A stretch of DNA of 32,202 nt from Candidatus Sulfotelmatobacter sp. GTDB taxonomy: Bacteria > Acidobacteriota > Terriglobia > Terriglobales > Acidobacteriaceae. The stretch's first letter is position 1. Every line of letters starts with the position of its first letter. The notes beneath the pieces are model-generated. The model made no database searches. It was not told where the DNA came from and saw only the letters and a program-made list of their open reading frames with translations. Positions 5,341 through 24,653 of the stretch are shown piece by piece. The translations under genes were made by a program, and so were the position numbers. The stretch covers positions 1-32,202 of the forward strand of contig JASHNX010000136.1 of the NCBI GenBank assembly GCA_030041415.1, written 5' to 3'.

Positions 5341-5597
5341 CGATTAACCGCGGGGCCTAATGTCATCGGCGATCAACAAAGCGTTCCTCCCCCAATCAGG
5401 CAGCACTGATCGCCGTGGCACGCAATGTGCGGCTTGTCTCTGTTCGTCGGACTTCCGACCCTGTTGTTGAACGACGAACGCAACACTTGCCCGAATCCAA
5501 AGCAGAATCACCGGCAACCCATCGCCGATCCGTATCTGCATTTGTTCGGGATTCTGAAGTCATTTGGTGCGGTAATTTCAGATCGAAAAGGATCGTT
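5341..5597 (+). promoter_or_regulatory. Long leader with several inverted repeats, possible cis-regulatory RNA
   Basis: This region lies between the promoter and the receptor start codon and holds several perfect inverted repeats. CGGCGATCA (5367-5375) pairs with TGATCGCCG (5407-5415). GTTCGTCG (5442-5449) pairs with CGACGAAC (5472-5479). GTCGGA (5446-5451) pairs with TCCGAC (5454-5459), which cannot form together with the previous stem. CCCGAA (5490-5495) pairs with TTCGGG (5545-5550), and CAGAATC (5503-5509) pairs with GATTCTG (5550-5556); these two cross. I do not recognise a known riboswitch here and found no B12 box. The receptor frame happens to be open back to 5415, but nothing suggests that this part is translated. 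Confidence 0.35.
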
Positions 5598-8867: not shown

Positions 8868-8931
8868 CAGCGTTTTTGCGCGGGAGGCAGTAAACGCAGT
8901 GAGTGAAAATTAGAAAGGAGAATACGAAATC

Positions 8932-11916
8932 GTGGCTCGCACGCGACTGTGGTTTGTTCTTGCCCTGATTATCTCAGGGTGCGGAATTCCTTCCTACGCT
9001 CAGACCGGTGTGCGCATTCTGCTCGGCCTGACGGACAAGGCCTCCAACCGATGGGATGGTTCAGTTGCGGTTGAGGGTGGGCAGATCACGCGCATCGATC
9101 CCTGGCGGTTTACGCCGGACGATGAGATTCATTCCGATCATTCCTGGCGAGCGTCGACTCACCCAGTCCTGATTGATTGGGATTCATGGACCGACCAGCA
9201 GCCGTTAGCCGCGAACGGAGTGATCGTTTGGCTGAACGGAGAAAATCCCGACACCGAGATCAAAGTCAAAACCGCGCGCGGAGATTTCAACTTTCGGGTG
9301 AGCCAGTTGGCCTTCGGACGATTCCAATATGCTCTCGACGGGCGGGTTGGCGTCGATCGCATACCAGCGAACTGGCAACTCACCAATACTCCCGATGAAG
9401 AGGACTATCCTGCAGCAGCAGTCGGCCCGAACGGCGATATCTGGCTGGCCTATTTGCAATTGCAACATCATCCCGAGCATAACCAGATTCGCGCTCCTTA
9501 TACGACTGCGCCAAAGGATTTTTCGAAATTATCCGAGCCTCCAAAAGGCGACCAGGTATTCGTTAAGCGCTTCTCCGACAATAAGTGGAGCGAGCCGATT
9601 GCGATCTCGAGTTTGGGAGACCTCTATCGGCCAGCAATTGCGATCGACGGAAAAGGCAGGCCGTGGGTCTTCTGGTCCGACAATCGAAGTAAGAAGGGCG
9701 TTTACGAACTCTACGCTCGTGTCCTCGAAAATGGCAAAGCTGCCGAGTCGCTCACCATCTCCAAGGCCTCGGGATCGGACGTATTCCCAGTGGCCACTAC
9801 CGATGCGCAAGGGCGAGTGTGGGTAGCGTGGCAGGGTTGGCGTGAAGGCAGAGCCGCGATCTTCTCCGCTACTCAGCAGGACAATGGGTTTTCTTCCCCG
9901 CAACAGGTTTCGAACTCCTCCGCGAACGAATGGAATCCCGCAATTGCCGCGGACTCGCGGGGTGCGGTGAGCGTCGCATGGGACTCCTACCGCAATGGCA
10001 GCTACGACGTTTATGTGCGCACGGCCTCGTCGGACTCATGGGGATCCGAAATTCCCGCAGCCGCGACCGCGCGCTACGAAGCCTATCCCTCAATCGCCTA
10101 CGACCCACAAGGAACGCTGTGGATTGCCTATGAGGAGGGAGCAGAAGGATGGGGCAAGGATTTCGGCGCGTATAAAACATACGGTGTTCCTCTTTACCAG
10201 GCGAGAGCAATTCGTCTTGTGGGTTTAAGTAGTTCAGGACGGCTGATCGATCCCGGAGTTGATGTGGGTACTGTGTTGCCGGGTATCGGCGATCTGCGAG
10301 AGGACAATCCCAGCCGACAATCGGATGTCACCGGGTGGGAGAAACCCGATCAGTCGGCAGCATCCAGACGTCCCCAGGATGTCGACAGCCTTGGGAATCA
10401 AAACGTGCGCAACACCCTGCCGCGATTGCAAGCCGATGCTTCCGGAAGGATCTGGCTGGCGTTCCGTTCCATGTCGCCGGTCGTGTGGTCGATCTTGGGC
10501 ACGTCATGGTCTGAATACGTGACTTCGTTTGACGGCAAGGTATGGACCGACCCGGTTTACCTATTCCGCAGCGATAACACGCTCGACAACCGTCCTGCTC
10601 TCGTTTCGCGCGGACCGGGTGATCTGATTGTGATCGAATCTTCGGATTATCGCCGCGAAGTGCAGCGCGGCCTGGCCAAGGGCTGGAACCCCGGAGTTTG
10701 GGATGGATACGGCTTCGACGATCCTTACAATAATGACCTCTTCGCCAGCGTTCTCAGCTTGCCCCCGGCGGCATCGCCCGTGGCTGGGCGCGATGCCGGA
10801 CCTCCGCCCGCTCCGGTCAAGCCCAGAGACACGGATTCAGATCAAACGGATTTGGCCAACGTCCGCAGTTATCGGATCACTGGCTCAGGTCCGGATTTGC
10901 AGATTTTGCGCGGCGAATTTCATCGCCACAGTGAAATCTCGTTTGATGGCGGGCACGATGGAACCATCATCGACCAGTGGAGATACATTCTCGATGTGGC
11001 CTCGCTCGATTGGGTCGGCTGCTGCGATCACTCGAATGGCGGTGGCCGTGAATACAGCTGGTGGACGACGCAGAAACTCACCGACATCTTCACCACCCCG
11101 GGGAAGTTCTCCGGAATGTTCAACTACGAGCGCAGCATCGAATATCCCGAGGGGCACCGCAATGTAGTGTTCGCGCAGCGCGGAGTTCGCCCGCTGCCGC
11201 GCCTTCCAAAGGTTGACGTAGATTCCACGGGGCACGCTCCGGACACTCTCAACTACTACGCATACCTGAAAAAGTACAACGGCGTGACGGCAGCGCACAC
11301 CAGCGCTACCGACATGGGAACCGACTGGCGGGACAACGATCCCGACGCCGAGCCAGTGGTTGAGATTTACCAAGGTATGCGGCAAAACTACGAAATTGCC
11401 GACGCTCCGCGATCCCCCAACGATAAGGATTCGATTGGCGGCTGGCGGCCGAAAGGATTCGTTAACATCGCGCTGGAAAAAGGCTACAAGCTGGGATTCC
11501 AATCGAGTTCCGATCACGTCTCGACGCACATCAGCTACGCCAGCGTGCTCGCCGCTTCGAACAGCCGGGAGGCCGTGCTCGACGCCCTGAAAAAGCGGCA
11601 CGTCTACGCCGCGACCGACAACGTCATTGCTGACGTGCGAAGCGGTTCGCACGTCATGGGCGATGCCTTCTCGACCAGCACAGCGCCAGAATTGTCGGTG
11701 AAACTGATCGGCACCGCACCGTTCGCCAAAGTTGTCATCGTCAAAGACAGCAAGTACGTCTATTCGACCCAACCGAACTCAAAGAACGTGGAGTTCAAGT
11801 GGCGCGACTATGCGCCACAAGCGGGCAAGACCAGTTATTACTACGTGCGCGGCGAACAGGAGAACGGAGAACTCGTGTGGGCCTCGCCTTTCTGGATTAC
11901 ATATACAGGCAAATAA
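8932..11916 (+). CDS. Exported beta-propeller protein with PHP-type phosphoesterase-like domain
   Basis: This encodes 994 residues. The GTG start at 8932 has GGAG at 8917-8920, a rather long spacing. A signal peptide (LALIISGCGIPSYAQ) indicates export. Residues about 150-580 contain repeated propeller blades with the pattern P-A-x-A-x-D-x-x-G-x-x-W-V-x-W (for example AIAIDGKGRPWVFW, VATTDAQGRVWVAWQG, IAADSRGAVSVAWDS, IAYDPQGTLWIAYE). The C-terminal third looks like a PHP metallohydrolase: HRH at 664-666, DHS at 699-701, Glu733 in NYERSIEYPEGHRN, His789 in AAHTSAT, and DH at 861-862 in SSSDHVSTH. These could form a multi-metal site. The substrate is unknown; PHP domains generally cleave phosphoesters. 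The gene lies 64 bp after the receptor and 13 bp before the cytochrome/DUF1549 gene, so cotranscription is likely. Confidence 0.75.
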   Translation: MARTRLWFVLALIISGCGIPSYAQTGVRILLGLTDKASNRWDGSVAVEGGQITRIDPWRFTPDDEIHSDHSWRASTHPVLIDWDSWTDQQPLAANGVIVWLNGENPDTEIKVKTARGDFNFRVSQLAFGRFQYALDGRVGVDRIPANWQLTNTPDEEDYPAAAVGPNGDIWLAYLQLQHHPEHNQIRAPYTTAPKDFSKLSEPPKGDQVFVKRFSDNKWSEPIAISSLGDLYRPAIAIDGKGRPWVFWSDNRSKKGVYELYARVLENGKAAESLTISKASGSDVFPVATTDAQGRVWVAWQGWREGRAAIFSATQQDNGFSSPQQVSNSSANEWNPAIAADSRGAVSVAWDSYRNGSYDVYVRTASSDSWGSEIPAAATARYEAYPSIAYDPQGTLWIAYEEGAEGWGKDFGAYKTYGVPLYQARAIRLVGLSSSGRLIDPGVDVGTVLPGIGDLREDNPSRQSDVTGWEKPDQSAASRRPQDVDSLGNQNVRNTLPRLQADASGRIWLAFRSMSPVVWSILGTSWSEYVTSFDGKVWTDPVYLFRSDNTLDNRPALVSRGPGDLIVIESSDYRREVQRGLAKGWNPGVWDGYGFDDPYNNDLFASVLSLPPAASPVAGRDAGPPPAPVKPRDTDSDQTDLANVRSYRITGSGPDLQILRGEFHRHSEISFDGGHDGTIIDQWRYILDVASLDWVGCCDHSNGGGREYSWWTTQKLTDIFTTPGKFSGMFNYERSIEYPEGHRNVVFAQRGVRPLPRLPKVDVDSTGHAPDTLNYYAYLKKYNGVTAAHTSATDMGTDWRDNDPDAEPVVEIYQGMRQNYEIADAPRSPNDKDSIGGWRPKGFVNIALEKGYKLGFQSSSDHVSTHISYASVLAASNSREAVLDALKKRHVYAATDNVIADVRSGSHVMGDAFSTSTAPELSVKLIGTAPFAKVVIVKDSKYVYSTQPNSKNVEFKWRDYAPQAGKTSYYYVRGEQENGELVWASPFWITYTGK

Positions 11917-11929
11917 CGAGAATCTGCAA

Positions 11930-14900
11930 ATGGCACTGGAGAGAGTTGTGAGAAGGGCTGGCTGGGTAGCCTTGTTCGGTGTATGTGGAATGCTATCGGC
12001 TATCAGTTTGTGGCCGAAAGGAATGTCCGTCGCAATGGCAGCCGGCGCGGAGGCTCCGCCAACACCCACTCCGGCGCAGGTGGACTTCTTTGAGAAGAGG
12101 ATTCGTCCGCTCCTCGTCGACCACTGCTACGACTGCCACTCGGCGACTACCAAGCAGTCGGGTGGATTGCGCCTGGACGATCGCGATGCGCTGCTCGCCG
12201 GAGGCAAAGATGGTCCGGCAGTTGTCCCCGGTGATCCCGAGAACAGCATGCTGATGCAGCGCGTTCTCGAAAAAGATGACATCAAGCGCCGGATGCCAAA
12301 GGGAGAAGACGATCCGCTTTCGCCGGAGGAAATCTCCGACCTGAGGGCCTGGATCAAGCAAGGCGTGTTCTGGCCGGTGGAGAAGAGCGACTACGTGCCT
12401 CCACCTTCACCGAGCAAAGCTGCCTTAAGGCTTGCCGCTTATCCGCGGCCTGCGACTCCCGAGCAACTGAGTTATTTCGAGAAGAACGTTCGTCCCATCT
12501 TCGTCAACCGTTGCTACAACTGCCACTCGGACGCCTTCAAAGAGGCCGGCGGCCTGCGCGTGGATTTCGGCGCCAGCTTCTTTTCCGGCGGCAAAGATGG
12601 ACCGGTTGTCGTTCCGGGACATCCCGAAAAAAGTTTGATGATCGAGAAGGTAAAAGAGAGCGATTCCAAGAAGCGCATGCCGCAGGAGAGTCCTGCACTG
12701 CCGGAAACTGAGATCGCAATTTTCGAAACCTGGATCAAAGACGGTGCCGCCTGGCCGGATGAAACGGAGAAGACGCCGGCAACGCCGGCTCACATCGCGG
12801 CAAATTACGTGAAACTGCGAGCGAACCACTGGGCATGGAAGCCTCTGAGCGATCCCGCTGTTCCGCAGGTTTCTAATGGGAAGTGGCCGTCGACGGATGT
12901 TGACCGTCTTCTATTAGCAAAGTTAGAAGAAAAGAAACTTGCCCCCGTTGAGGATGCCGATCCAGTTACGCTGATTCGTCGTCTGACCTTCGACCTCACG
13001 GGGCTGCCACCGACTCCCTCCGCGGTCAAGGCGTTTCAAAAAGATCACTCGGCAAAAGCTTACGCCCAGTTGGTCGATCGTCTTCTCGCGTCTCCGCAGT
13101 ATGGCGAACGATGGGGCCGACACTGGCTCGATGTTGCGCGCTATGCGGAGTCCACCGGCCCTTCGCGCAACATTCCTTTTCCTAACGCGTGGCGCTATCG
13201 CGATTATGTGATCGACGCGGTCAACCGTGATATTCCCTATGACCGCTTCATTCAGGAACAGATCGCGGGCGATTTGTTGCCAACCAAAGTGCCTGCCGAA
13301 CGTGATCGTCTCATCACCGCGACCGGATTTCTCGCTTTGGGTCCAAAGGACGTGAACCAGCGCTTTAGCGCCCGCTACAAAATGGATAACGTCAACGATC
13401 AGATCGACACGGTGACTCGCTCGACACTGGCAATGACGGTCTCATGCGCGCGTTGCCACGATCACAAGTACGATCCCATTCCAACCGCCGACTACTATGC
13501 AATGGCGGGAATTTTCGCCAGCACCACCGACGCATCCGGATTAAAAAGCGGAATGGGCGGGGCCAGCCTCGACTATTACACGCCAAAACTGCTGGCTTAT
13601 CTGAGCGACGCGAAAGCGCCGACAGTTTCCAAAGATGAAATTGAGAAGCTGAAAGCCGAAACTGCAGACGCCAAAAAAGCCTTCGATGCCATCAAAGATA
13701 CTGCCGAAGGTACTGCACTCGATTCGGAGGGCAAGCCAGTACAAGATCGCGTCGAGAAAAAATACAACCGCCTGAATGAAAACCTCATGCTAATCTCAGA
13801 CCTCGGCGAGCAGGGGTACGGAATTCACAGCATGCGAGATGGCGTCGCTGCGGATACGAGCGTGCGCATTCGTGGAATCGAAGAGCGGCACGGGCCAACA
13901 GTGCCGCGTGGTTTTCTCAGCGTAGTTCAGGTTCCGGACGCACCCAAGATTCCGGGGACTCACAGCGGACGCCTCGAGCTTGCGCAGTGGATTACGAATC
14001 CCAGCAATCCTCTCACTGCGCGGGTTTACGTCAACCGGGTCTGGCAGCATTTGTTCGGCGTAGGCATCGTCAGTACGGTGGACGATTTCGGCTCGCGCGG
14101 CGAGCCGCCATCTAATCCAGAGCTGCTGGATTTTCTCGCCCGAGATTTCATGCGCAACGGATGGTCGACCAAAAAGCTGATCCGCGAACTGGTTCTTTCC
14201 CATGCGTACCGACTGGGATCGACTGTTCCCGGCGGTTACCGTGATGTCGATCCCGCCAACCGGTTGGTCTGGCGGCATTCACCGCGGCGGCTGGAAGCCG
14301 AAGAAATTCGTGACAGCATCCTACTTTCGTCAGGCCGCCTGAATCTCGATCACCCCGCGGGCTCTCCTTCGATGAAAGTAAGAATGATCGAGATTCAGGA
14401 CGACGGCCCCGTCGCGCACTCTCTTCTTGCAGCAGCCGACCGCAGCACCTATCGCAGCATCTATCTTCCGCTGCTTCGCGGCGAAACTCCGCGCTCGCTG
14501 GCGGCATTCAATCCTGTCCTGCAAACACTTGTGACTGGCCGTCGCGACGCAACCACGGTCGCAACGCAAGCGCTTTTCATGCTGAATTCCCCGTTCGTGA
14601 GCGAGCAGTCTTTTTATCTCGCCGATCGATTGCTGAGCGAAAAAGGCCGCGGCAACCGTGATCGCATTCGCGAAGCTTATGAGCTCGTTCTCTCAAGAGA
14701 TCCGAGCCCGCAGGAATCGCACAAAATCCGTTCTTTCTTGTCGAGCTACGAGAGCTCTTACAAGAAGGCGCATCCATCTGCGTCTGGTGCTGCAAAGCTG
14801 ACGCGGGTGACCGATACGACCGCGGATATCACCGCCGGCGTTGTTCGCGCCGACGACGAAGCCGACGTACCGAAACCGAGCAAACAGGAACCAGCGCAAC

Positions 14901-14980
14901 CGAAAAACCCTAAACAAGCGGCGTGGGCGAGTTTTGTGCAGTCGCTTTATGCCTCCGCAGAATTTGAATTTGTGCGGTAA
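11930..14980 (+). CDS. PSCyt1-PSCyt1-DUF1549-DUF1553 multiheme-type protein
   Basis: This 1016-residue protein was assigned to start at the ATG at 11930, just after the previous stop. The Shine-Dalgarno is weak, and GTG 11948 is an alternative. A hydrophobic export segment covers about residues 10-40. Two tandem planctomycete-type cytochrome c domains follow, with heme motifs CYDCH (66-70) and CYNCH (195-199); each has a later RMP that may supply the axial Met. DUF1549 runs from about residue 320 (DVDRLLLAKLEEKKLAPV... GERWGRHWLDVARYAES) and contains a third motif, CARCHDHKYDP, at 506. DUF1553 begins near residue 678 (LAQWITNPSNPLTARVYVNRVWQHLFG). The function of the family is undetermined; an exported redox or hydrolytic role is usually assumed. 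It is paired with a DUF1501 protein immediately downstream, the common arrangement. A Lys/Pro-rich segment precedes the C-terminal end. Confidence 0.88.
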   Translation: MALERVVRRAGWVALFGVCGMLSAISLWPKGMSVAMAAGAEAPPTPTPAQVDFFEKRIRPLLVDHCYDCHSATTKQSGGLRLDDRDALLAGGKDGPAVVPGDPENSMLMQRVLEKDDIKRRMPKGEDDPLSPEEISDLRAWIKQGVFWPVEKSDYVPPPSPSKAALRLAAYPRPATPEQLSYFEKNVRPIFVNRCYNCHSDAFKEAGGLRVDFGASFFSGGKDGPVVVPGHPEKSLMIEKVKESDSKKRMPQESPALPETEIAIFETWIKDGAAWPDETEKTPATPAHIAANYVKLRANHWAWKPLSDPAVPQVSNGKWPSTDVDRLLLAKLEEKKLAPVEDADPVTLIRRLTFDLTGLPPTPSAVKAFQKDHSAKAYAQLVDRLLASPQYGERWGRHWLDVARYAESTGPSRNIPFPNAWRYRDYVIDAVNRDIPYDRFIQEQIAGDLLPTKVPAERDRLITATGFLALGPKDVNQRFSARYKMDNVNDQIDTVTRSTLAMTVSCARCHDHKYDPIPTADYYAMAGIFASTTDASGLKSGMGGASLDYYTPKLLAYLSDAKAPTVSKDEIEKLKAETADAKKAFDAIKDTAEGTALDSEGKPVQDRVEKKYNRLNENLMLISDLGEQGYGIHSMRDGVAADTSVRIRGIEERHGPTVPRGFLSVVQVPDAPKIPGTHSGRLELAQWITNPSNPLTARVYVNRVWQHLFGVGIVSTVDDFGSRGEPPSNPELLDFLARDFMRNGWSTKKLIRELVLSHAYRLGSTVPGGYRDVDPANRLVWRHSPRRLEAEEIRDSILLSSGRLNLDHPAGSPSMKVRMIEIQDDGPVAHSLLAAADRSTYRSIYLPLLRGETPRSLAAFNPVLQTLVTGRRDATTVATQALFMLNSPFVSEQSFYLADRLLSEKGRGNRDRIREAYELVLSRDPSPQESHKIRSFLSSYESSYKKAHPSASGAAKLTRVTDTTADITAGVVRADDEADVPKPSKQEPAQPKNPKQAAWASFVQSLYASAEFEFVR

Positions 14981-15008
14981 ATGAGATTTGCACAAGGAGC
15001 GTGAAAAA

Positions 15009-16391
15009 ATGTCCGAAAAATTGCCCCTCCAAACCTCGCGGCGCACTTTATTGAAAACTGCCGGATGTGGCTTCGGCTACTTCGCGCTGGCCGGGTTGCT
15101 CGGCTCGGCCACCCAAAAAGCGATGGCTTCCGACCTCTCTAACGCTGCAAATCCGCTGGCTCCCAAGCGCCCGCATTTTACGCCCCGGGCGAAGCGCATC
15201 ATCTTTCTGTATATGGAAGGCGCGATGTCCACTCTGGACACCTTCGAATACAAAGCTGTGCTGCAGAATAGCGCCGGCAAATCCGGGCCTGGCGGTGGCA
15301 CGCTGACGCCTTCGAAATTTCAGTTCAAGCAATATGGCAACACCGGAACGTGGTTTTCCGAGTTGATGCCGAACATTGGCACGCACGCCGACGATCTCTG
15401 TTTTCTACGCAGCCTCTACACGGACACCCCAGCGCATCCGCAAGCGGTCGTGCAACTGCACACCGGCAGCGCCAATGCTGCGTTGACCCGCCCCAGCATG
15501 GGCGCATGGTTGTTGTATGGCCTTGGGACTGACAATCAAGATTTGCCGGGATTCATCACCATCAACCCGACGATCGATTTTGGCGGCGCCGTCAATTACG
15601 GCAGCGCTTTCCTGCCCGCCTATTATCAAGGCACGCCGATTAGTGATGAGGGCTTCATGCCCAACATCGAACCGGCTGCGCCAAAGGGCTTGCAGCGGCA
15701 GCAACTCGATCTCATCCAGGACATGAACCGAAGTCTCGCGGCTTCGGACGGCGCGCCAGACGCGGTCGATGGCGTGATCAAGTCCTACGAACTCGGCTTC
15801 CGCATGCAAGATACGGTTCCCGCCCTGCTCGACATTTCGAAGGAACCGCAAAAAGTCCTGGACGCCTACGGAGTAAAACCCGGTCCCGAGGGTTCGTTCG
15901 CGCGGCAGTGCCTGATGGCCCGCAGGCTCAATGAAGCCGGGGTACGTTTCGTCGAGATTCGCCAGCCGGGATGGGACCATCACACCAACCTGCACCGCGG
16001 AATGATCGATCAATGCCGCAGAATCGATCAGCCAACTGCCGCCCTGCTCACTGACCTCAAGCAACGCGGACTACTCGAGGACACGTTAGTCATGTTTGGA
16101 TCGGAATTTTCGCGTCTGCCAACCAGCGAAGGAACAGACGGCCGCGACCACAATATCACCGGTTATTCCATGTTCCTCACCGGCGCCGGCGTAAAAAAGG
16201 GATTCAATTACGGCTCGACCGACGACATTGGAATGAAGGCCATCGAACACCGCATGCACGTCAATGATCTGCACGCCACTCTGTTGGCGTTAATGGGACT
16301 GGATCACGAGCAACTCACGTATCGCTACGCCGGACGCAATTTCCGGCTCACCGATGTTGCCGGAGTGGTGCAGAACGAAATTTTCGCTTAG
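15009..16391 (+). CDS. Tat-exported DUF1501 protein
   Basis: This 460-residue protein starts at the ATG at 15009 with AAGGAGC ideally placed; an in-frame TTG at 14988 is less likely. The N-terminus carries a twin-arginine signal: SRRTLLK with arginines 11-12, followed by a Gly/Ala/Leu-rich stretch ending near AMAS, so the protein should be exported folded. DUF1501 belongs to the alkaline phosphatase/sulfatase-like fold. The expected metal-site blocks are present as LDTFEYK near the N-terminus, GWDHHTNLH in the middle, and FGSEFSRLPTSEGTDGRDHN then HVNDLHATLLALMGLD near the C-terminus. The biochemical activity of the family is not established. Its place 28 bp after the DUF1549/DUF1553 gene supports a joint function, probably on the outer face of the inner membrane. 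Confidence 0.88.
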   Translation: MSEKLPLQTSRRTLLKTAGCGFGYFALAGLLGSATQKAMASDLSNAANPLAPKRPHFTPRAKRIIFLYMEGAMSTLDTFEYKAVLQNSAGKSGPGGGTLTPSKFQFKQYGNTGTWFSELMPNIGTHADDLCFLRSLYTDTPAHPQAVVQLHTGSANAALTRPSMGAWLLYGLGTDNQDLPGFITINPTIDFGGAVNYGSAFLPAYYQGTPISDEGFMPNIEPAAPKGLQRQQLDLIQDMNRSLAASDGAPDAVDGVIKSYELGFRMQDTVPALLDISKEPQKVLDAYGVKPGPEGSFARQCLMARRLNEAGVRFVEIRQPGWDHHTNLHRGMIDQCRRIDQPTAALLTDLKQRGLLEDTLVMFGSEFSRLPTSEGTDGRDHNITGYSMFLTGAGVKKGFNYGSTDDIGMKAIEHRMHVNDLHATLLALMGLDHEQLTYRYAGRNFRLTDVAGVVQNEIFA

Positions 16392-16412
16392 GCATCAAGG
16401 GATTCCGAACCG

Positions 16413-16949
16413 ATGGGGAATTGGGTGAAGTCGTCGTGGGCGAAATTCAGAGGTTTCTTGGGCGGAAGAAATTCGCCAGCCAAAAAAATGGCGGTGACCG
16501 TCGCGTTTCTGGGCTTCTTTGCGGTAGTCACGCTTGTGGCGCAGCGCGCATCAAGGGTGTTGTTAACTTCGTCCGGGAAGTTTACTGCCGCGCAGAGGGC
16601 CGAGGGTGAGCAACTCTTCAGCGACAAAGTAAGGCCAACTCTTAAACGCAAATGCGGTAAGTGCCACGGCGAGGATGACTCGCGCTCCGGTTTGCGTGTG
16701 GACTCTCGCGACGCACTCCTTTGCGGCGGTCACCGGGGGCCTGCCATTACGCCAGGGCAACCCGATCACAGCTTGCTGATTCTGGCAGTGCTTCAGACCG
16801 GCGACTTGAAGATGCCGCGGCGGGGCAAGTTATCGCCCGAGGAAATCCAGGCGCTCTCGGACTGGATCAAAGACGGCGCGCCTTGGCCGCAGACGAGCAC
16901 TCTCGGTTGGAAAGACAAATTCGCAAAGGTTGTGGACTGCATTCTATAA
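16413..16949 (+). CDS. Membrane-anchored single-heme PSCyt1-type cytochrome
   Basis: This encodes 178 residues. One membrane segment (about residues 26-45, MAVTVAFLGFFAVVTLVA) is followed by a single cytochrome domain with CGKCH and a later MPRRGK that may supply the axial Met. The blocks SGLRVDSRDALLCGGHRGPAITPGQPDHS and LSPEEIQALSDWIKDGAPWP match the two domains in the 11930 gene closely, so it is a free-standing relative of those modules. It probably passes electrons at the outer face of the inner membrane. It lies 21 bp after the DUF1501 gene and 27 bp before the permease gene, which links the heme genes to the transport genes. Confidence 0.82.
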   Translation: MGNWVKSSWAKFRGFLGGRNSPAKKMAVTVAFLGFFAVVTLVAQRASRVLLTSSGKFTAAQRAEGEQLFSDKVRPTLKRKCGKCHGEDDSRSGLRVDSRDALLCGGHRGPAITPGQPDHSLLILAVLQTGDLKMPRRGKLSPEEIQALSDWIKDGAPWPQTSTLGWKDKFAKVVDCIL

Positions 16950-16976
16950 ACAATCGCTTCATCCGAATTCTCGATC

Positions 16977-17726
16977 ATGTCTGCAAACACCGTAAATCTT
17001 GCGCTTCTCTCCGCTGCGGTCTTGGGCTTTCGCCACGGTTTCGATTACGACCACATCGCCGCGATTTCCGACATCACCAGCGTCGAGAGCTCACGCAAAC
17101 GCGCCATGCGTATGGGATTGGTTTATGCCCTTGGCCACGCCACGACGGTTGCAACGCTCGGGGCACTTGTCCTTCTCTTTCAGCAGTCGATTCCCAAACG
17201 TCTCGACAATTGGGCCGAACGCGCAGTCGGATTTACCCTCGTGATTCTAGGCGTTTATGTTCTAGGTACGCTGCTACGTGAAAGGTCTGAGTACATCCCG
17301 CGATCACGCGCGGCGATTCTCATCGATTTCACTCGTTGGTTGCGGTGGGAGTTCAAACGCTTCTTCGGTTTCAATGTTGCAGAAGTACGGCCTGAGCGTC
17401 AGAACGGTTCCTACAGCTGGAGTTCGGTCTTCACCATTGGGGTGATTCACGGCTTGGGCGCAGAAACCCCAAGCCAATTGATGTTATTTCTTCTGGCCGC
17501 GAATTTGGGCGGCCCAGCTCGCGGACTGCTCGGCCTCGCCGTGTTCTTGTCAGGACTGCTTCTGATGAACACGCTGATGACCGCTTCCGCCGTAGGTGTG
17601 TTCGGACTAAGTGCGGCGAAACCAAAAGTTCTACGTTTCGTGATAGCAGCAACCGCAGCTTACAGCGTAGTTGTGGGATCGGTTTTCTTACTGGGAGCTT
17701 CCAAGCTGCTTCCGCAACTGGGGTGA
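16977..17726 (+). CDS. NiCoT-like metal permease
   Basis: This 249-residue membrane protein has about six hydrophobic segments. The first carries RHGFDYDHIAAI, matching the HX4DH signature of nickel/cobalt transporters (His20, Asp25, His26). A second helix has LGHATTVATLG, like the family's second signature, and a central helix has IHGLGAETPSQLMLF (His158, Glu163). The known family moves Ni2+ or Co2+ through the inner membrane, and related UreH-like members handle other metals or are unassigned. No nickel enzyme genes are present, so the metal is open. The gene lies between the cytochrome gene and the P-type ATPase fusion on the same strand. It may be the import arm opposite the ATPase, or both could serve one direction. 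Confidence 0.8.
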   Translation: MSANTVNLALLSAAVLGFRHGFDYDHIAAISDITSVESSRKRAMRMGLVYALGHATTVATLGALVLLFQQSIPKRLDNWAERAVGFTLVILGVYVLGTLLRERSEYIPRSRAAILIDFTRWLRWEFKRFFGFNVAEVRPERQNGSYSWSSVFTIGVIHGLGAETPSQLMLFLLAANLGGPARGLLGLAVFLSGLLLMNTLMTASAVGVFGLSAAKPKVLRFVIAATAAYSVVVGSVFLLGASKLLPQLG

Positions 17727-17840
17727 GCGGCCTTGCTGGCAATTGATTTGCAAATTTTCGGGAAGAGTAACGCCCGTTCATCGGTCTGACAAAACGAAGT
17801 CGGAGTGGCGAGATTCTAAACGTGAGGCCTAGGAAAAACA

Positions 17841-20819
17841 GTGAGCGCTGAAATGGATCGAGAACACCAGGAGCGAATCCGGTACTACGTTTTCGCGGCG
17901 TTCGTAGGAGTCTTGCTCCTGCTGAATTGGCTTGGCATTTTTAAGACTCTCTTCGGAATCGACACGGCGGTTTTGATCACGCTGCTGGCCGGATATAAGA
18001 CTTTCTATAACTCACTGTCTTCGCTTCTCGAAAAGCGCATCTCCGCCGACATCGCGCTTTGCGTTGCCGTGATCGCTGCTTTAGCAGTGGGACAATATCT
18101 TGCCGCCGCGGAAGCCATGTTTATCGTGCTGGTTGGAGAAGGGCTGGAATCCTACGCGGCCGGACGCACGACCGCGGCGATTGAGCGCTTTGTTGAACAA
18201 CTTCCGAAAACCGCAACAGTGGTGCATGGCGGAGTCGAAGAAACTGTCGACTCGAGCGCCGTCGTTGTCGGCGACCTCGTTCTGGTCCGGAGCGGGGACC
18301 GCATTCCGGCCGACGGAATCATCGAATCTGGGAACTCTTCGGTCGACGAGAGCTCGATTACCGGAGAACCGTTGCCGCAGGAAAAGAAGCCGGGCGACGA
18401 GGTCTTTTCCGGGACTTTCAACACTCATGGCTTGTTACGCATTCGCGTTTCCCGCATCGGCGGAGACACTACGCTAGGTCGCGTCATCGAGCTTGTAAAG
18501 GAAGCACAGGAAAAACGGGCGCCGGTCGAGCGGCTCGCTGACCAGTACGCCAAATATTTTCTTCCCGCCCTGCTGCTCTCTGCAGGACTTACTTTTTATT
18601 TCACGCGCGACTGGCTGCGAACCGTCGCAGTTCTTATTGTTGCTTGTCCATGTGCGCTGATTCTCGCCACTCCAACAGCCATGGTCGCTGCCATGGGGGG
18701 CCTCGCCCGTCGCGGCATTCTTGTGCGCGGCGGGGCGGTGGTTGAGCGCATTGCAAAGATCGACACCCTTGTTTTCGACAAGACTGGAACTATCACCGAA
18801 GGCAAGCTGGAAATCGTCGGTATTCTACCGGTTGAAAGCGAGGACGAGGTTCTCGCCCTCGCTGCCGCCGCCGAGTCAGCATCTGCGCACCCTCTTGCCC
18901 GAGCGATCGTAGCGGAAGCCACAAGACGCCGCCTGAAATTGATTAAACCTCAAACTGCGGAGGTTGTCCCTGGCCGCGGGGCAGTGGCTCGTTTGGGTCC
19001 AAGTGAAATCCGCGTTGGCAACGCAGCATTTCTTCAGGAAGCTGGCGTGATCGGAACCGAGGCTCTAATGGCGAGAGCTGACGAAGCTTTAGCCACCGCA
19101 GTGCTGGTTGCTGACGGCAAGCGCCTGGTCGGTGCCATTTTGTTCCGGGATCGCATCCGCGAGGGCGCTGTAAGCGCCCTCATGGCGTTCCGCGATCTCG
19201 GACTTCAAGATCAGTACATTTTGACGGGCAACCGTCCACGGATGGCGGAATACATTGCGCGTGAGGTCGGCATTTCTCATGTCGAAGCTGCGCTTTTGCC
19301 CGCGCAAAAAGTCGACCGCATTCAAGCCCTGATGGCGTCCGGCCACCGACCCGCCATGATTGGCGACGGATTGAACGATGCCCCCTCATTGGCGACCGCT
19401 AGCGTCGGAATCGCAGTTTCCGGCGCCAGCGACATTACTGCCGAGGCTGCGGACGTCGTCTACATGCCACATTCGCTGGAAGCGTTGCCGGAGTTGTTTC
19501 GCCTCAGCCGGCGTGCGGTTCACACGGCCTGGCAGAACATTATTCTGTTCGCGGGAGTGCTCAACGCATCGGCTGTGGTCTGCGCAGCGACAGGGATCAT
19601 TGGCCCAGTCGGAGCCGCGATTACCCATCAGCTGTCGTCGTTTTTCGTGATGATGAATTCGCTCCGTCTGCTGCGTGTGCCTTCCAACAAAGAGTCGCGA
19701 ATTCGGAGTATTTTCACTTCGCTCTGGGCACGAGTCCCCGTCGCAGAGATCGAATCCTGCGTCCAGTGCACGGTTGCGAAGCTGGAATTTGGGACGCTGC
19801 TCGACGGATTCATTTCTCGAACTCCTAGCTGGCCGCGCCTACGGATGCCCCTCCTTTACTCAACCTTGGGCGTTTATGTGCTAAGCGGCATTTACACTCT
19901 CGCCCCCAGTGAAGTCGGCGTGATCGAGCGCTTCGGCCGCAAGCAACTGCCTTACCGCGAGCCCGGCATCCACTACAGGCTTCCATGGCCAGTCGAGCAG
20001 CTTACGCGCATCCAAGCAAACAAAGTGCGCGTTGTCGAAATCGGTTTCCGCTCGGGCTCTAGCTCACAAGCGAGTGAGCCCACCGCCTACGAGTGGAATG
20101 TGCAGCACCGCAGCGGACGTTTCCAGAAAATTCCTGAAGAGTCGCTCATGCTAACCGGCGATCAGAACATGATCGAAATGACAGCGACTATTCAGTACAT
20201 TCCCGAGCGCCCTGACGATTTCCTCTTCCGCCAACTTGATGCTGACGGGACCGTGCGTGCCGCTGGCGAGTCTGTCATCGAAGGCGTGACAACATCTTCT
20301 TCGCTGGATGACGTGCTGATCCTGCACCGGCGAGAAATTGAAACGCGCGCTCAGAATGAACTGCAGAAGCGTCTTTCCGCTTACGGCGCCGGGGTGCGTG
20401 TGCTGCAGGTAAAGCTCGAGGATGTCCACCCTTCCATCGAAGTAGTCGCCGCGTTTCGACAAGTCTCGGACGCGTTCGAAGAGAAGAACCAGATGATCAA
20501 TCAGGCTGAGGGATACCGGAGCGAGCAGTTGGCGCTGGCGCGCGGTAATGCGACTGCTGCTGTCACCAATGCTGAAGCCTTCCGAATTGGACGAAAAACA
20601 CGTGCCGAGGGAGACGCTAGTCGCTTCGACTCTGCCGAGCTGGCGTTTCGCGGTGTGCCGCAGGCGACCGAATCGCGTTTGTATCTGGAAACGATGGAAG
20701 ACGTTCTGCCCGGCAAGAAGAAGCTGATTCTTGACAAGAGCAGCAACAAACGGCATCTGTTTCTCCTGCAAGACGGAGTGGAACTTCCAAACGGCCTTCG
20801 CGCTCTGCCGGAGAACTGA
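17841..20819 (+). CDS. Heavy-metal P-type ATPase fused to an HflK-like SPFH protein
   Basis: This is one uninterrupted 992-residue frame. The GTG start at 17841 has AGGA upstream. Residues 1-615 form a P1B ATPase without an N-terminal HMA domain: four helices before the actuator, TGE at 174-176, CPC at 269-271 in helix 6, the phosphorylation motif DKTGT (Asp313), HP at 350-351, GDGLNDA at 508-514, and two last helices including [16 protein letters not shown]. Residues 616-670 are a linker with CVQC (640-643). A ninth membrane helix (about 671-690) then leads into an HflK-type SPFH module with [30 protein letters not shown] and [15 protein letters not shown], ending in KKLILDK. The C-terminal half resembles the separate HflK at 21747. 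ATP-driven metal transport within an SPFH scaffold is the natural inference. The helix-8 residues do not match the standard metal-specificity classes that I know. Confidence 0.9.
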
Positions 20820-20865
20820 ACCACAGGCACTTTAAGAAATCGGCGGAATACCGGGGAATACGAAA

Positions 20866-21750
20866 ATGACGACAAAATCGAAACGTTTATGGATCGGCAG
20901 CGGTGTTGCGCTGTTACTGATTTATCTATCGTTCTACAGCGTGCACGAAACGGAATTCGCCCTGGTGACGCAATTCGGGCGTCCAGTCAGAACCGTGGCC
21001 GACGCCGGCTTGCATGTGAAATGGCCATTTCAATCGATCCTTTGGTTTGATAAGAGACTACGCATTTACAACCCGCGGCCATCGGAATTCCTTACTCGCG
21101 ACAAAAAAAACCTAGTCATCGAGAACTACGTCGCTTGGCGCATCGAAGACCCCAATCGATTCGTCCAGACTGTCGGGGATACGGCAGCCGCAGAGATGCG
21201 CTTGCATGACATCATCTGGTCGGGTCTCTCAGCGTCTCTTGGGACTCAGGATCTCGAATCTCTCGTCTCTGCTTCTCCCGACAGAGTACACACCGGACAG
21301 ATGCTAGATCTACTGACCACAAGTTCGGAGCGCGCTGCAGTAAATCAGTATGGGATTCGTATTGTTGACATTCGCATCAAGCGATTGAACCTACCCGAAC
21401 AGAACAAACAGAGCGTATTTGCTCGCATGCGGGCCGAACGCGAACGCATTGCCATGCAGTATCGCGCCGAAGGGGAGCAACAAGCCCTAGCCATTCGTGC
21501 AGATGCGGACCGCGAGAAGGAAGAGATCCTTTCGGCGGCCTACAAGGAGGCCGAAACCATTCGCGGCCAGGGCGACGCGGAAGCAACCCGCATCTATGGC
21601 CAGGCTTATTCGAAAAATCCGCAGTTTTACAAACTGCTGCGAACGCTGGAGGCATACAAGAAAGTCCTTGATGACAAGACGACCATCATTCTCAACTCCG
21701 ACTCAGAGTTGTTGAAGGTTCTCACCCAGGGCGAGGCGGGCGCAAAATGA
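20866..21750 (+). CDS. hflC: HflC-like SPFH membrane protein
   Basis: This 294-residue protein has one N-terminal membrane helix (about residues 8-24) followed by an SPFH/band 7 domain. The HflC pattern includes ETEFALVTQFGRPVRTVADAGLHVKWPFQ, DKKNLVIENYVAWRI and DIRIKRLNLPEQ. A charged coiled coil from about residue 185 to 245 (MRAERERIAMQYRAEGEQ...) and a C-terminal strand IILNSDSELLKVL complete it. In E. coli, HflC assembles with HflK into a large cage around the FtsH protease. The gene lies 46 bp after the ATPase-HflK fusion and overlaps the next hflK by four bases (ATGA), so all three SPFH proteins are probably made together. No ftsH lies in the window. Confidence 0.88.
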   Translation: MTTKSKRLWIGSGVALLLIYLSFYSVHETEFALVTQFGRPVRTVADAGLHVKWPFQSILWFDKRLRIYNPRPSEFLTRDKKNLVIENYVAWRIEDPNRFVQTVGDTAAAEMRLHDIIWSGLSASLGTQDLESLVSASPDRVHTGQMLDLLTTSSERAAVNQYGIRIVDIRIKRLNLPEQNKQSVFARMRAERERIAMQYRAEGEQQALAIRADADREKEEILSAAYKEAETIRGQGDAEATRIYGQAYSKNPQFYKLLRTLEAYKKVLDDKTTIILNSDSELLKVLTQGEAGAK

Positions 21751-22745
21751 GCACTGTGCTTAGCCCCCGACTCGCCACCGTCAGCCAGATCGAATCTCCA
21801 GAACCGGTTCGATCACGGCGCCTCAGACATTACTGGGCGTGGTTGCTGGCACTGTGGCTGGTCGCAGGAATTTACATTGTGCCGGCAGACCAGCAGGCGG
21901 TCGTCACGCGTCTGGGGGCGGTAGTCACCCCGCGCGTGCCGCCCGGAATTCATTATGCCCTGCCCTGGCCCATCGACAGTATCTACAAACTCAAGGTTCA
22001 CCAATTGCGTCGAACTGTAATTGGCGGCGATATGCCCGACGCCGCCCTGGGTCGCCTTCAGCCGGTGGCTTCCGAATTCCTGAGCGGAGATCAGAACCTG
22101 CTTAACATTCGAGTTGTCGCTCAATACTCCGTCAGTGAACCGAAAGATTTTCTTTTTCAGACTTCCGACGTGGACGGCGTGGTGCGGTCGGTTGTTGAAT
22201 CGGAACTTGCCCGTCGCATCGCCCACACTCCGGTCGACGCGATTCTCACGACCGACAAGATAGCAATTCAAAATGATGTTCTCCAGACTGGAGAACGATC
22301 TCTGGTTAGCTACCATGCCGGCGTGGTGCTCTCCAGCATCAACATCGAAAATGTGACTCCGCCCGCCGAGGCTGCCGACGCCTTTCGCAGCGTTGCGGGC
22401 GCGCGCGCCGATGCAATTCGCCTGGTCAATGAGGCGGAAGGGTATGCCAATGACTTACTGCCGCGGGCGCGAGGGGAAGCGGCTCAACTTGGCGAACAAG
22501 CGCAAGCTTACAAGGATGGAAAGATCAACCGCGCGAATGGCGACGCCGCACGCTTTTCCGAGATCGCTGCCGAATATGCGAAGGCCCCAAAAGTCACAAC
22601 TACTCGTGCCTACGTCGAAGCGATGGAACTAATCTTGCCGAGGCTCAAAAAGCTCATTGTCGATAAGAACGGCAATCTCGATCTCACAATCATGCGTCGC
22701 GACAACGGGACGCCCAACTCGCAAAACGGAGTCCCTCTAAAATGA
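21747..22745 (+). CDS. hflK: HflK-like SPFH membrane protein
   Basis: This 332-residue protein has a short cytoplasmic N-terminus, a membrane helix (about residues 30-46) and an SPFH domain of HflK type. The domain includes PADQQAVVTRLGAVV, PPGIHYALPWPIDSIYKL, FLSGDQNLLNIRVVAQYSV and INIENVTPP, followed by NEAEGYANDLLPRARGEA and the terminal KKLIVDKNG. The same blocks occur in the C-terminal half of the fusion at 17841, so the operon has two HflK-type subunits and one HflC. Unlike E. coli HflK it has no long Gly-rich N-terminal tail. Translation is probably coupled on both sides through ATGA overlaps. The paralogues may form alternating or heteromeric rings with HflC, which is an inference from the gene order. 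Confidence 0.86.
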   Translation: MSTVLSPRLATVSQIESPEPVRSRRLRHYWAWLLALWLVAGIYIVPADQQAVVTRLGAVVTPRVPPGIHYALPWPIDSIYKLKVHQLRRTVIGGDMPDAALGRLQPVASEFLSGDQNLLNIRVVAQYSVSEPKDFLFQTSDVDGVVRSVVESELARRIAHTPVDAILTTDKIAIQNDVLQTGERSLVSYHAGVVLSSINIENVTPPAEAADAFRSVAGARADAIRLVNEAEGYANDLLPRARGEAAQLGEQAQAYKDGKINRANGDAARFSEIAAEYAKAPKVTTTRAYVEAMELILPRLKKLIVDKNGNLDLTIMRRDNGTPNSQNGVPLK

Positions 22746-23245
22746 AGTACAAAATCGACAGCAAGACCATTTTTACCGTCTCGTTTTTGCTCACCCTGTT
22801 TGCACTGGCTGTTCTTCGCAATCACCAACCGACTCTTTCCTCCTGGCTCTTTGATCGGTTTTCATCCAAGCCTGCCGCCAGTCCTGAGGATTCGATCTAT
22901 GCCATGCTCGACGCCGCCCGCGCCGGAGACACGAAGGCATACCTAGAGTCCTTTGCGGGTCCGATGCGGGACCAGCTTCTGCAAGTTGTGAAAGAAAACT
23001 CCGAGCCCAGGTTTGCTGACTACCTGAAATCGCAAAACACCGCATTTCAAAGTGTTGCCGTGAGCATCGCCGATCGCCCCAGCGACTCCGAGGTGCAGGC
23101 GCGCATCGAGTATGTCTACACCGATCGAAATGAAGTGCAAAACCTCTATTTGCGCAAGGACAACTCGCGGTGGCGGATTTTCAAAATCGGCGGCTCCGAC
23201 CAAATCAAAACGCTAGTGCCGTTTGGAAGTTTGGTAGGCGATTGA
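22742..23245 (+). CDS. Membrane-anchored small protein, possibly NTF2-like
   Basis: This encodes 167 residues. Residues 9-26 (TIFTVSFLLTLFALAVLR) form a membrane anchor. The remainder is soluble and presumably outside the inner membrane. The pattern PEDSIYAMLDAARAGDTKAYLESFAGPMRDQL followed by alternating strands (QARIEYVYTDRNEVQNLYLRKDNSRWRIFKI) resembles small NTF2-like/DUF4878-type lipoproteins, but no catalytic residues are evident. The start codon overlaps the hflK stop (ATGA), so it is the last gene of the transcription unit and probably an accessory subunit or assembly factor of the SPFH/ATPase membrane system. That role is inferred from position only. Confidence 0.72.
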   Translation: MKYKIDSKTIFTVSFLLTLFALAVLRNHQPTLSSWLFDRFSSKPAASPEDSIYAMLDAARAGDTKAYLESFAGPMRDQLLQVVKENSEPRFADYLKSQNTAFQSVAVSIADRPSDSEVQARIEYVYTDRNEVQNLYLRKDNSRWRIFKIGGSDQIKTLVPFGSLVGD

Positions 23246-23549
23246 GCAGCTGGCTCCTCGCGGCTTCTCCTCTAGGGCAGCTTCGAACAGCTGCTTGACC
23301 GCTTCCCATTTCTCAGCGGACGTTCACGAGCGCGGATCGCCTCAAGGCATCTCATGCCTACACCACCGCGAGAGTTCATAATTCACTTTAGAGTGGACGG
23401 AGTCGACGGGGTACCGGCTCAAGAGAATTTCTTCGTCAAGGTAACCGGCATTTAAAGGCGCTCTCTAACCTTATCGACAATCGACGCTTCGCGGAGCCAA
23501 CCGACCCTACTGTGGGCCACCAAGTCCGACACGTCTTCTTCTTGTTACA
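23246..23549. other. Convergent intergenic region with one small open frame
   Basis: This region lies between the ends of the + strand run and the - strand amidohydrolase gene. Apart from the weak hairpin near its start, it contains a 33-codon open frame on the + strand (ATG 23354, stop 23453-23455) whose end reads FRVDGVDGVPAQENFFVKVTGI. That composition looks more protein-like than random, and the frame is open upstream to a TAG near 23274, so it may be a remnant of a gene 3' end. No Shine-Dalgarno is convincing, and I do not call a gene. Confidence 0.3.
23275..23296 (+). terminator. Weak terminator candidate after the ten-gene run
   Basis: A stem GCAGCT / AGCTGC (23277-23282 and 23289-23294) with loop TCGAAC starts about 30 bases after the last stop codon and can be lengthened by two G-U pairs. 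Only a few T residues follow, so intrinsic termination would be poor, and Rho-dependent ending is equally possible. Confidence 0.25.
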
Positions 23550-24653
23550 TCACAATCCGGGAATCCAGCGGATGGCATTGCTGCGAAATATTTTCTGAAG
23601 GACCTGCTGGGGCAGGTTCAATCCCTGCACCTGTTTGCCTTCGACAGTAAGGGTTTCACCGGTCGCCAGGAATTTCCAGTCACGCGCATAGGTGGACTGC
23701 CATTCGGCCAATGTATCCGGAACGTTTGCGTCTGGGTTTAAATCGAGATCGGTGCCGTAGAGAACGCGGTCCTGATACTTGATAAGAAATGCCCTTACCT
23801 TTTCCGGCGGCATCAGCATGAGGTATTCCATCCTCGCCGCTGTGTCGATGGCAAAATTGGGATACCTGTCGAGGTGGCTTCCGATATTGTCGAGGTTACG
23901 CTCCATGCTGCCCAGATGAACACCCACCATGCGCAGTTTTGGATTTTGGGCGAGCACATGATCACGGGCGTCGAGAATCCTCTGCTTCGAAGGGAACCCA
24001 GGTCGATTGGCAACGTACCATTGCGGATTTTCCTGATAGTAGGACCACGATGGGTCGGCCGCATCGGGTGGCCCCCAGGCCACATCGGGCTCGGCTTGGT
24101 GCGTCATGAGCGTCTTGCCGTGGCGGGCGATGTCTTTGTAGATCGGCTCAAACTTCGGATCGTCAGCCATGATGTATTTCCCGCCGCCGTTCTTGATTTC
24201 CATTCCGACGTTCTTCCAGACCTTGACCGCCACGGCCCCCTGCGCGAAGTCGCGATCGATTTGCTTAACGGCGTCGGCAGCAAATGAGGCGCTGTCGAAT
24301 TTGTAGGGATCGAAGGTCGTACACAGTGCGAAGTGGCCGCCGCCGGATCGCACCAGCTCCAATGCGCTATCGATCTGCGGCTGCAATTGCTTGCGAATGG
24401 GGTTCGTATCGTCCATTACGAGAATATCCAGCAGTTTCAGGTTGAGCCGTTCGAGCATCTCCTGAAATGCGGGATCGGTCTTGAAGACATGAACGTGGAC
24501 ATCGATGGGGTGGATCGCTGCAAAAGCTGAGAGAGCCCCTTCGTTATCGGCGGGTTTCGCGGGAGCGGACGCGGAAGTGGGCGCTTGGGCGGCAGACAGG
24601 GCAACGCAGAGGGTTATAACGATTTGAGCGATAGCTCGTGCCGAACGAATCAC
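23550..24653 (-). CDS. Secreted amidohydrolase-family protein
   Basis: This 367-residue protein belongs to the amidohydrolase superfamily (Amidohydro_2 type). The GTG start at 24653 is preceded by GGAGGGAG at good spacing. A signal peptide ends near residue 23 (LSAAQA). Metal-ligand positions of the TIM barrel are visible: HVH (53-55) in IDVHVHVF, Lys144/147 in AVKVWKN, His185 in LMTHQAEPD, His246 in VGVHLGSMERN and Asp302 in LYGTDLDL. Family members hydrolyse or decarboxylate varied substrates, and this one cannot be assigned. Export is unusual for the classic decarboxylase members but common among relatives in this type of bacterium. The gene lies 131 bp after the TonB receptor on the same strand and could be cotranscribed with it, which would suggest processing of the imported compound. 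Confidence 0.82.
   Translation of the reverse strand: MIRSARAIAQIVITLCVALSAAQAPTSASAPAKPADNEGALSAFAAIHPIDVHVHVFKTDPAFQEMLERLNLKLLDILVMDDTNPIRKQLQPQIDSALELVRSGGGHFALCTTFDPYKFDSASFAADAVKQIDRDFAQGAVAVKVWKNVGMEIKNGGGKYIMADDPKFEPIYKDIARHGKTLMTHQAEPDVAWGPPDAADPSWSYYQENPQWYVANRPGFPSKQRILDARDHVLAQNPKLRMVGVHLGSMERNLDNIGSHLDRYPNFAIDTAARMEYLMLMPPEKVRAFLIKYQDRVLYGTDLDLNPDANVPDTLAEWQSTYARDWKFLATGETLTVEGKQVQGLNLPQQVLQKIFRSNAIRWIPGL

Follow-up and report, generated by a model that had tools for sequence, protein, structure and literature searches.

The stretch of DNA analysed here, called the window below (32,202 nucleotides; contig JASHNX010000136.1 of assembly GCA_030041415.1, from Candidatus Sulfotelmatobacter sp. 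of the Acidobacteriota), contains one uninterrupted gene in which a heavy-metal P-type ATPase is joined to a protein of the HflK family carrying an SPFH (Band 7) domain; this fused HflK is designated HflK', as opposed to the second, pump-free HflK encoded downstream of it, behind hflC. In other loci the place of the ATPase in front of HflK is taken by either of two unrelated metal exporters, a cation diffusion facilitator (CDF) in eight loci and a Cu/Zn permease of the SO_0444 type in six. Of the 52 fused loci (38 ATPase, 8 CDF, 6 SO_0444), 51 have pump-HflK', hflC and second hflK in this order on the same strand, and the remaining one (L098) reaches a contig edge after hflC. The reading favoured here, to which we give a probability of about 0.65, is that of a metal-export cassette, whose exporter would be covalently joined to a wall subunit of a pump-loaded SPFH compartment of the HflK/C type.

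The ATPase-HflK' fusion and its occurrence

The fusion gene is a stop-free open frame of 992 residues (17841-20819, + strand, like all the cassette features located below), whose start is uncertain; the ATG at 17853 may be the real one, because three close homologues (L009, L038 and L010) begin at the residue aligned with Met5. Pfam places E1-E2_ATPase at residues 120-291, Hydrolase at 307-520 and Band_7 at 688-891, all above the gathering score, while in NCBIfam the same protein passes both TIGR01525, the heavy-metal P-type ATPase family (540 bits, cut-off 346), and TIGR01933, the hflK family (180 bits, cut-off 159.4), and thus belongs to HflK as well. Among solved structures, the front part comes closest to CopA-type and cadmium P-type ATPases and the back part to E. 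coli HflK. The original prediction, made from the letters alone, had described one frame with all the P1B hallmarks, followed by a ninth membrane helix and a complete HflK-like module, with intact hflC and hflK downstream; on each of these points it agrees with the family searches, the motifs and the hydropathy reported here.

The ATPase part (residues 1-613, 17841-19679, delimited by Pfam, NCBIfam and alignment) carries TGE at residues 174-176, CPC at 269-271 (sixth helix, 18645-18653), DKTGT at 313-317 (18777-18791), H350-P351 and GDGLND at 508-513 (19362-19379), and in its eighth helix HQLSS (19626-19640); with the TIGR01525 cut-off passed, these motifs make it a P1B heavy-metal ATPase. No N-terminal heavy-metal-associated domain was found in it by Pfam, NCBIfam or alignment. 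A variable linker, expected to be cytoplasmic, follows (residues 614-665, 19680-19835, by alignment); its CVQC is present in the window protein and in none of 11 other aligned homologues, and in four homologues of family f29 (L098-L101) the linker is very rich in His. Behind the linker, averaged hydropathy locates the ninth membrane helix (residues 670-688, 19848-19904), equivalent to the single anchor of HflK and immediately preceding the SPFH domain of HflK' (residues 688-891, 19902-20513, by Pfam and NCBIfam), after which a long helix (866-937) is predicted by a low-confidence model.

Typing assigned the same architecture to 38 loci, whose ATPase parts range down to 42% identity. Within the phylum the scans covered samples and near relatives, and beyond the Acidobacteriota they covered plasmid records; typing was by BLAST, with Pfam run in addition on all 14 CDF and SO_0444 fusions and on six ATPase fusions. 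Both nearest relatives, G005 (74%) and a Sulfotelmatobacter metagenome-assembled genome (71%), have the fusion, which is also present in G059 (49%), and the hosts include soil and sponge bacteria. A scan of a genome collection returned 16 loci, each with one frame spanning nearly the whole query. Distribution within the window's own genus is patchy, two of 37 genomes having the fusion (G000 and G005, among G000-G036). It occurs in 34 of 399 sampled genomes of the class, 24 of them typed by BLAST and 10 judged by a frame length of 1009-1104 residues together with a match starting inside the ATPase, and in 20 of 396 genomes sampled from the phylum; the two samples partly overlap each other and the collection scan, so that the counts are not additive.

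In the class sample 41 genomes have an HflK match, and the seven in which fusion was not demonstrated are accounted for by a fragment at a contig end (G555), by contigs that stop before the fusion's expected place (G582, G588, G594) and by plain hflK-hflC pairs (G060, G477, G499). A stand-alone HflK' of the fused type was found in none of the inspected loci, apart from a piece of 201 residues at the end of the G555 contig. It had been predicted that an assembly error was unlikely, and that close relatives in which the two parts always exist as separate genes would speak against the fusion; such relatives were looked for and not found, and the search for homologues instead returned the recurrent architecture just described. 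An artefact of assembly or annotation could be suspected from the origin of the window in a fragmented draft assembly of 350 contigs; it is contradicted by the independent genomes of the class sample and by fusions lying inside very long contigs (6.2 Mb in G568, 4.4 Mb in G700), and deserves practically no credence. Since nearest relatives and independent genomes carry the same fusion, read-through and misassembly are rejected and the fusion is genuine.

The fused pumps look functional as judged from their residues: TGE, CPC and DKTGT are kept in 38/38 ATPase fusions and strict GDGxNDA in 33, the other five having a variant. Assignment to a P1B subtype is less direct. The P1B-4 (Co/Cd) type is marked by a sixth-helix SPC together with an eighth-helix HEGGT(X)5N and the P1B-2 (ZntA) type by CPC and an Asp in the eighth helix; PMC10800456, from which these definitions come, numbers the two helices TM4 and TM6 (TM, transmembrane). 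All 38 fused ATPases have CPC and, in the eighth helix, HQ-x-[SA]-S. P1B-4 was rejected, CPC standing in place of SPC throughout and the His being kept but not the Ser; P1B-2 was rejected too, CPC being present but no Asp in the eighth-helix motif. As regards P1B-1 (CopA type), the fusion protein passes TIGR01511 (411 bits, cut-off 397) but lacks the eighth-helix M-x-x-S-S, a feature of the unfused CopA-like rows compared; it also passes the cut-off of TIGR01512, the cadmium family. The substrates would most likely be transition-metal ions such as Zn, Cu or Cd.

Unrelated exporters, a fixed gene set and a distinct HflK'

Pfam domain PF01545 (cation diffusion facilitator) is combined with Band_7 in G338, G370, G386, G172, G332, G239, G181 and a plasmid of Aquibium oceanicum, and PF03773 (ArsP_1-type permease) with Band_7 in G072, G119, G296, G407, G392 and G235, both domains being above cut-off in 14/14 of these fusions. 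NCBIfam was run on six of the 14; the SO_0444 Cu/Zn efflux transporter is the best model for the three PF03773 fusions scanned, and the exporter and hflK parts both pass in L163 (CDF) and L151 (SO_0444). The residues of the exporter sites are largely kept in these pumps as well: two HxxxD motifs in 8/8 CDF fusions, and in the SO_0444 fusions the second Cys motif in 6/6 and the first (CSC) in three by pattern and in L154 and L156 by eye, the corresponding stretch of L155 falling in a run of unknown bases in its front part. The C-terminal dimer domain of CDF exporters is not listed by Pfam in any of the eight CDF fusions, and HflK stands there instead.

Counting all types, at least 33 of the 396 phylum genomes are fused (20 ATPase, 7 CDF, 6 SO_0444), and one family, f37, holds both an ATPase fusion (G246) and CDF fusions (G172, G181, G239, G332). 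The Aquibium fusion, in an alphaproteobacterium, lies on a conjugative plasmid and came to light through the neighbours of a partial plasmid match; the gene is annotated solely as 'FtsH protease activity modulator HflK', and thus also encodes a metal exporter that its name does not mention. Among 72,556 plasmid records none covers 80% of the ATPase-type junction, of the first CDF-type query or of the SO_0444-type query, and with the Aquibium query only the Aquibium fusion itself reaches that coverage.

In the window the fusion is followed by hflC (20866-21750; TIGR01932, 231 bits, cut-off 134) and, with an overlap of four bases, by the second hflK (21747-22745; TIGR01933, 208 bits, cut-off 159), both complete by Pfam and NCBIfam; the adjacent hflC of the TIGR01932 family places the cassette with the HflK/C complexes. 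An HflC-like gene adjoins the fusion in 52/52 typed loci (by BLAST) and a second hflK is present in 51, some of them cut by contig ends, so that among the loci inspected the fused subunit always belongs to a set of three SPFH proteins. The inspected loci without a fusion, 26 in number and including three plasmid records, are hflK-hflC pairs with no second hflK in view; some of these views span 3-4 kb, and a second hflK further downstream could be missed there. Nothing is visible beyond hflC in the unfused L094 and L144, and the genomes of unfused loci mostly show a single HflK match. On a Vibrio plasmid (L166, 6903-9217) the gene next after an hflK-hflC pair is nhaA, for a Na+/H+ antiporter; this may be a further case of a transporter linked to an SPFH pair.

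The fused HflK' is also recognizable by itself. It has an insert, placed after the first SPFH strands and ahead of the conserved LTGD stretch, with the pattern W-x(0-4)-H; in the window protein this pattern is W752-x3-H756 (20094-20108). By motif counts, and with the pattern chosen after inspection of the first-set sequences, it occurs in 50/52 fused HflK' (38/38 ATPase, 7/8 CDF, 5/6 SO_0444; the exceptions are Aquibium and L151), in 0/50 second HflKs and in 0/24 rows bearing the label unfused; among these rows L147, a short view of the G072 cassette that lies outside the 26 unfused loci, is actually a second HflK. Among class loci fetched later the motif is present in 28/28 fused views (22 genomes, all of the ATPase type) and in 0/32 second-HflK views and 0/3 unfused HflKs, with one fragment unscorable; two of these later genomes (G568 and G700) look like records already in the first set. 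The insert may contact the pump or the emerging metal.

Two short HflK pieces (L054 and L147) were excluded before the trees were built, as were 19 loci, most of them near-duplicates, and about three quarters of the HflC rows that remained; a more careful tree was made without any HflC rows and also without three plasmid HflKs. This careful tree unites the ATPase fusions (97/99) and requires two or more origins for the CDF fusions. A topology test does not reject a single clade of all fused HflK' (p 0.67). A single origin of the second HflKs, indicated with a support of 87 by a quick tree, was dropped. One HflK' may have swapped pumps, or several fusions may have arisen separately; on both views unrelated exporters have come to occupy one and the same position.

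The proposed compartment and competing explanations

Membrane topology was taken from averaged hydropathy profiles, which replaced single-sequence helix counts, these being erratic. Over the 38 ATPase homologues seven of the eight expected P1B helices rise above threshold, in addition to the helix before the SPFH domain, and the undetected one would lie near residues 90-115; both Acidobacteriota CDF groups show six helices plus one, and the count for the SO_0444 type is ambiguous. P1B ATPases and CDF exporters have their C-terminus on the cytoplasmic side, and because the pump ends there and one extra helix follows, the SPFH domain would be in the periplasm, as in E. coli HflK.

That the pump is built into an SPFH cage fits the fixed set of pump-HflK', hflC and hflK and the recent structures of SPFH proteins with their cargo: HflK/C forms alternating 24-subunit walls around FtsH, in closed and in nautilus-like open forms (PMC12048511), and stomatin encloses the AQP1 (water) and UT-B (urea) channels (PMC12407830). 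By analogy, the linker and the extra membrane helix would place the SPFH domain of HflK' in the periplasm, where HflK' and the second HflK would share the HflK places and alternate with HflC in a dome-like wall; the pump-free second HflK would act as a spacer, leaving room for the bulky pumps, which would be clustered or enclosed, and stabilised, in a small membrane compartment, and metal would exit under the periplasmic dome. A phenotype of the cassette in metal export would be expected from such an arrangement. More tentatively, at somewhat less than even odds, interchangeable exporters (P1B, CDF, SO_0444) may load themselves into the cage and release metal into an enclosed periplasmic space instead of the open periplasm, with the Trp-His insert as gate or sensor.

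Several observations weigh against the favoured reading. The AlphaFold model of the whole fusion, built on a 17-sequence alignment, is poor (mean predicted local distance difference test score, pLDDT, 54; predicted template modelling score 0.29), and consequently lends the cage no geometrical support. Conservation of the linker that joins pump and HflK' is low, and the second HflKs do not form one group in the careful tree. Not every fusion passes the NCBIfam models of both its parts: L152 passes NF033936 (357, cut-off 300) and is below the hflK cut-off, L158 passes the CDF model (85.0, cut-off 82.35) and falls narrowly below hflK (156.3, cut-off 159.4), and P0002 (CDF) and L154 (SO_0444) are below both cut-offs. 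G547, a genome outside the 52 fused loci, retains the fusion (L187, 6193-8715) with an in-frame loss of about 190 residues from the ATPase, while its SPFH part and the other cassette genes are intact; the SPFH part may thus be useful even where the pump does not work, unless the assembly is at fault there. Finally, the cassette contains the only HflK and HflC genes found in its own genome (95.6% complete), the four other Band_7 genes of which score below the HflK and HflC cut-offs, and the single FtsH of that genome lies alone on another contig.

For this last reason the cassette may serve FtsH, which in E. coli is enclosed by HflK/C (PMC12048511); the fused pump would then confer responsiveness to metal or be a favoured FtsH client, and export from a compartment would not be its purpose. 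On the other hand, 13/14 fusion genomes of family f56 (all except G400) have a third HflK match outside the cassette, which makes the cassette an additional one in that family, and metal exporters are what HflK' is joined to in each of the three fusion types, an indication that selection acted on metal export. A complex devoted to modulating FtsH is, on balance, unlikely.

An open raft, in which the SPFH scaffold would gather pumps into an effluxosome-like assembly with no enclosing dome, has precedents in mycobacteria, where P-ATPases cluster in efflux platforms (PMC9374683) and PacL gathers them into foci independently of flotillin (PMC9374683, PMC13043812), and flotillin-type SPFH proteins have been linked to membrane microdomains (PMC9374683). 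Against such a raft stands the retention of HflC and the second HflK in 51/52 loci (the one exception is cut), since a heteromeric wall would account for it more readily than a mere self-associating tether; we regard the raft as a doubtful, although serious, candidate. Least attractive among the functional explanations is that the fusion merely couples expression, its product being cleaved or its parts working independently: the variability of the linker would agree with this, but three non-homologous pumps are attached in the same orientation to HflK', never to the second HflK in the typed loci, and the insert of HflK' is common to 50/52 of them, so that mere coupling appears very improbable.

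Neighbouring genes and comparison with known systems

The original prediction was right about the fusion, and overlooked both its recurrence with other pumps and a fourth gene of the cassette, which overlaps the second hflK by four bases (22742-23245). This gene encodes a protein of 167 residues with an N-terminal membrane helix and a probable NTF2/cystatin-like domain; its model (pLDDT 73) retrieves mostly NTF2-like folds in Foldseek, at E-values of 5e-5 and worse and TM-scores below 0.6, and the product is probably membrane-anchored and NTF2-like. A BLAST match to it is present in 34/38 ATPase-type loci (three others end at a contig edge, and L055 has none) and in 0/14 CDF and SO_0444 loci, of which L116 is cut at that place.

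Upstream of the fusion, at a distance of 114 bases, lies a gene for a NicO-like permease of the nickel/cobalt type (16977-17726, + strand; PF03824, 29.8 bits, cut-off 27.7), a homologue of which (67%) is directly upstream of the fusion in L038. Seven loci of family f56 (L104, L107-L109, L112, L113, L115) have a frame of 251 residues in its place; the translation of that of L107 is a His-rich membrane protein, and no Pfam family is above cut-off in the frames of L104 and L107. Directly upstream of the NicO-like gene (11732-16949) are genes for a PSD1/PSCyt cytochrome-like protein, a DUF1501 protein and a small PSCyt1 protein, and PSD1-like genes are also near the cassette in L051 and L099-L101. 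Further upstream (8932-11916) the window encodes a DUF3604 protein with propeller-like repeats and an N-terminus that resembles a signal peptide by eye; proteins of this type, of 945-996 residues, are found upstream of ATPase-type cassettes in several families (L054, L102, L106-L109, L201, L202 and others), in some loci directly adjoining the cassette.

As for the CDF type, the cassette of L163, the conjugative plasmid of Aquibium oceanicum, is followed (8439-14864) by genes for a peptidylprolyl isomerase, a heavy-metal P-type ATPase, a PCu(A)C copper chaperone, SCO, DsbB and a thioredoxin-domain protein, and that of L117 is adjoined by a divergent CbiX-type gene (5492-6424) of the metal chelatase family. 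A scan of five window genes and of five neighbours in other loci gave no indication of a further metal role, the CbiX gene excepted.

Fusion of an SPFH or HflK protein with a metal exporter was not found described in open-licence full-text literature, among the matches listed, in accordance with the earlier statement that no ATPase with its own SPFH domain was known; the parts seen of a 2009 paper on SPFH evolution (PMC2636767) and of a 2026 survey of SPFH proteins in Pseudomonas (PMC13086221) contain no mention of a fusion with a transporter, and the combination of pump and Band_7 may stand uncommented in domain-architecture databases. SPFH housings and pumps are each of known kinds; it is their covalent union, with several pump families, that is not described in the literature searched. 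What SPFH assemblies enclose, and for what purpose, is an open question, and demanding structural work is generally needed to identify their cargo. In the fusions a covalent link made in evolution joins cargo and wall, with three unrelated pumps, and a single four-gene cassette makes it directly testable whether SPFH cages house transporters and what the transporters gain from it. The occurrence of three unrelated pump kinds on one kind of cage subunit suggests that cells house metal export in membrane compartments walled by protein, and that clustered metal efflux, as seen in mycobacteria, can also be reached by another route, by way of SPFH proteins.

With the E. coli HflK/HflC-FtsH complex the cassette shares the HflK and HflC families, a periplasmic SPFH domain (by homology) and, if the favoured reading holds, a hetero-oligomeric wall around membrane proteins; it differs in that FtsH is not covalently joined, that E. 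coli has two subunits only and that no exporter is involved there. Stomatin too is an SPFH assembly enclosing transport proteins, but a non-covalent, eukaryotic one with cytosolic SPFH domains and no metal pumps, as the excerpts of PMC12407830 describe it. The PacL-CtpC/CtpG/CtpV effluxosomes of Mycobacterium resemble the proposed arrangement in the scaffolded clustering of metal P-type ATPases, but rely on small PacL proteins, independently of flotillin, and no SPFH fusion is mentioned in the excerpts of PMC9374683 and PMC13043812; no PacL (DUF1490) gene is beside the pump among the eight genes scanned in the window (14988-24653). As to the pumps themselves, the fused ATPase has the full catalytic core and CPC of P1B heavy-metal ATPases (TIGR01525), and is set apart by the missing N-terminal metal-binding domain, the HQxxS eighth helix, the extra helix and the HflK domain. 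Likewise, the fused SO_0444 permeases (NF033936) and CDF exporters (TIGR01297) retain exporter cores with their metal-site motifs, and differ from their free counterparts in being joined to HflK', which in the CDF type stands where the dimer domain would be listed.

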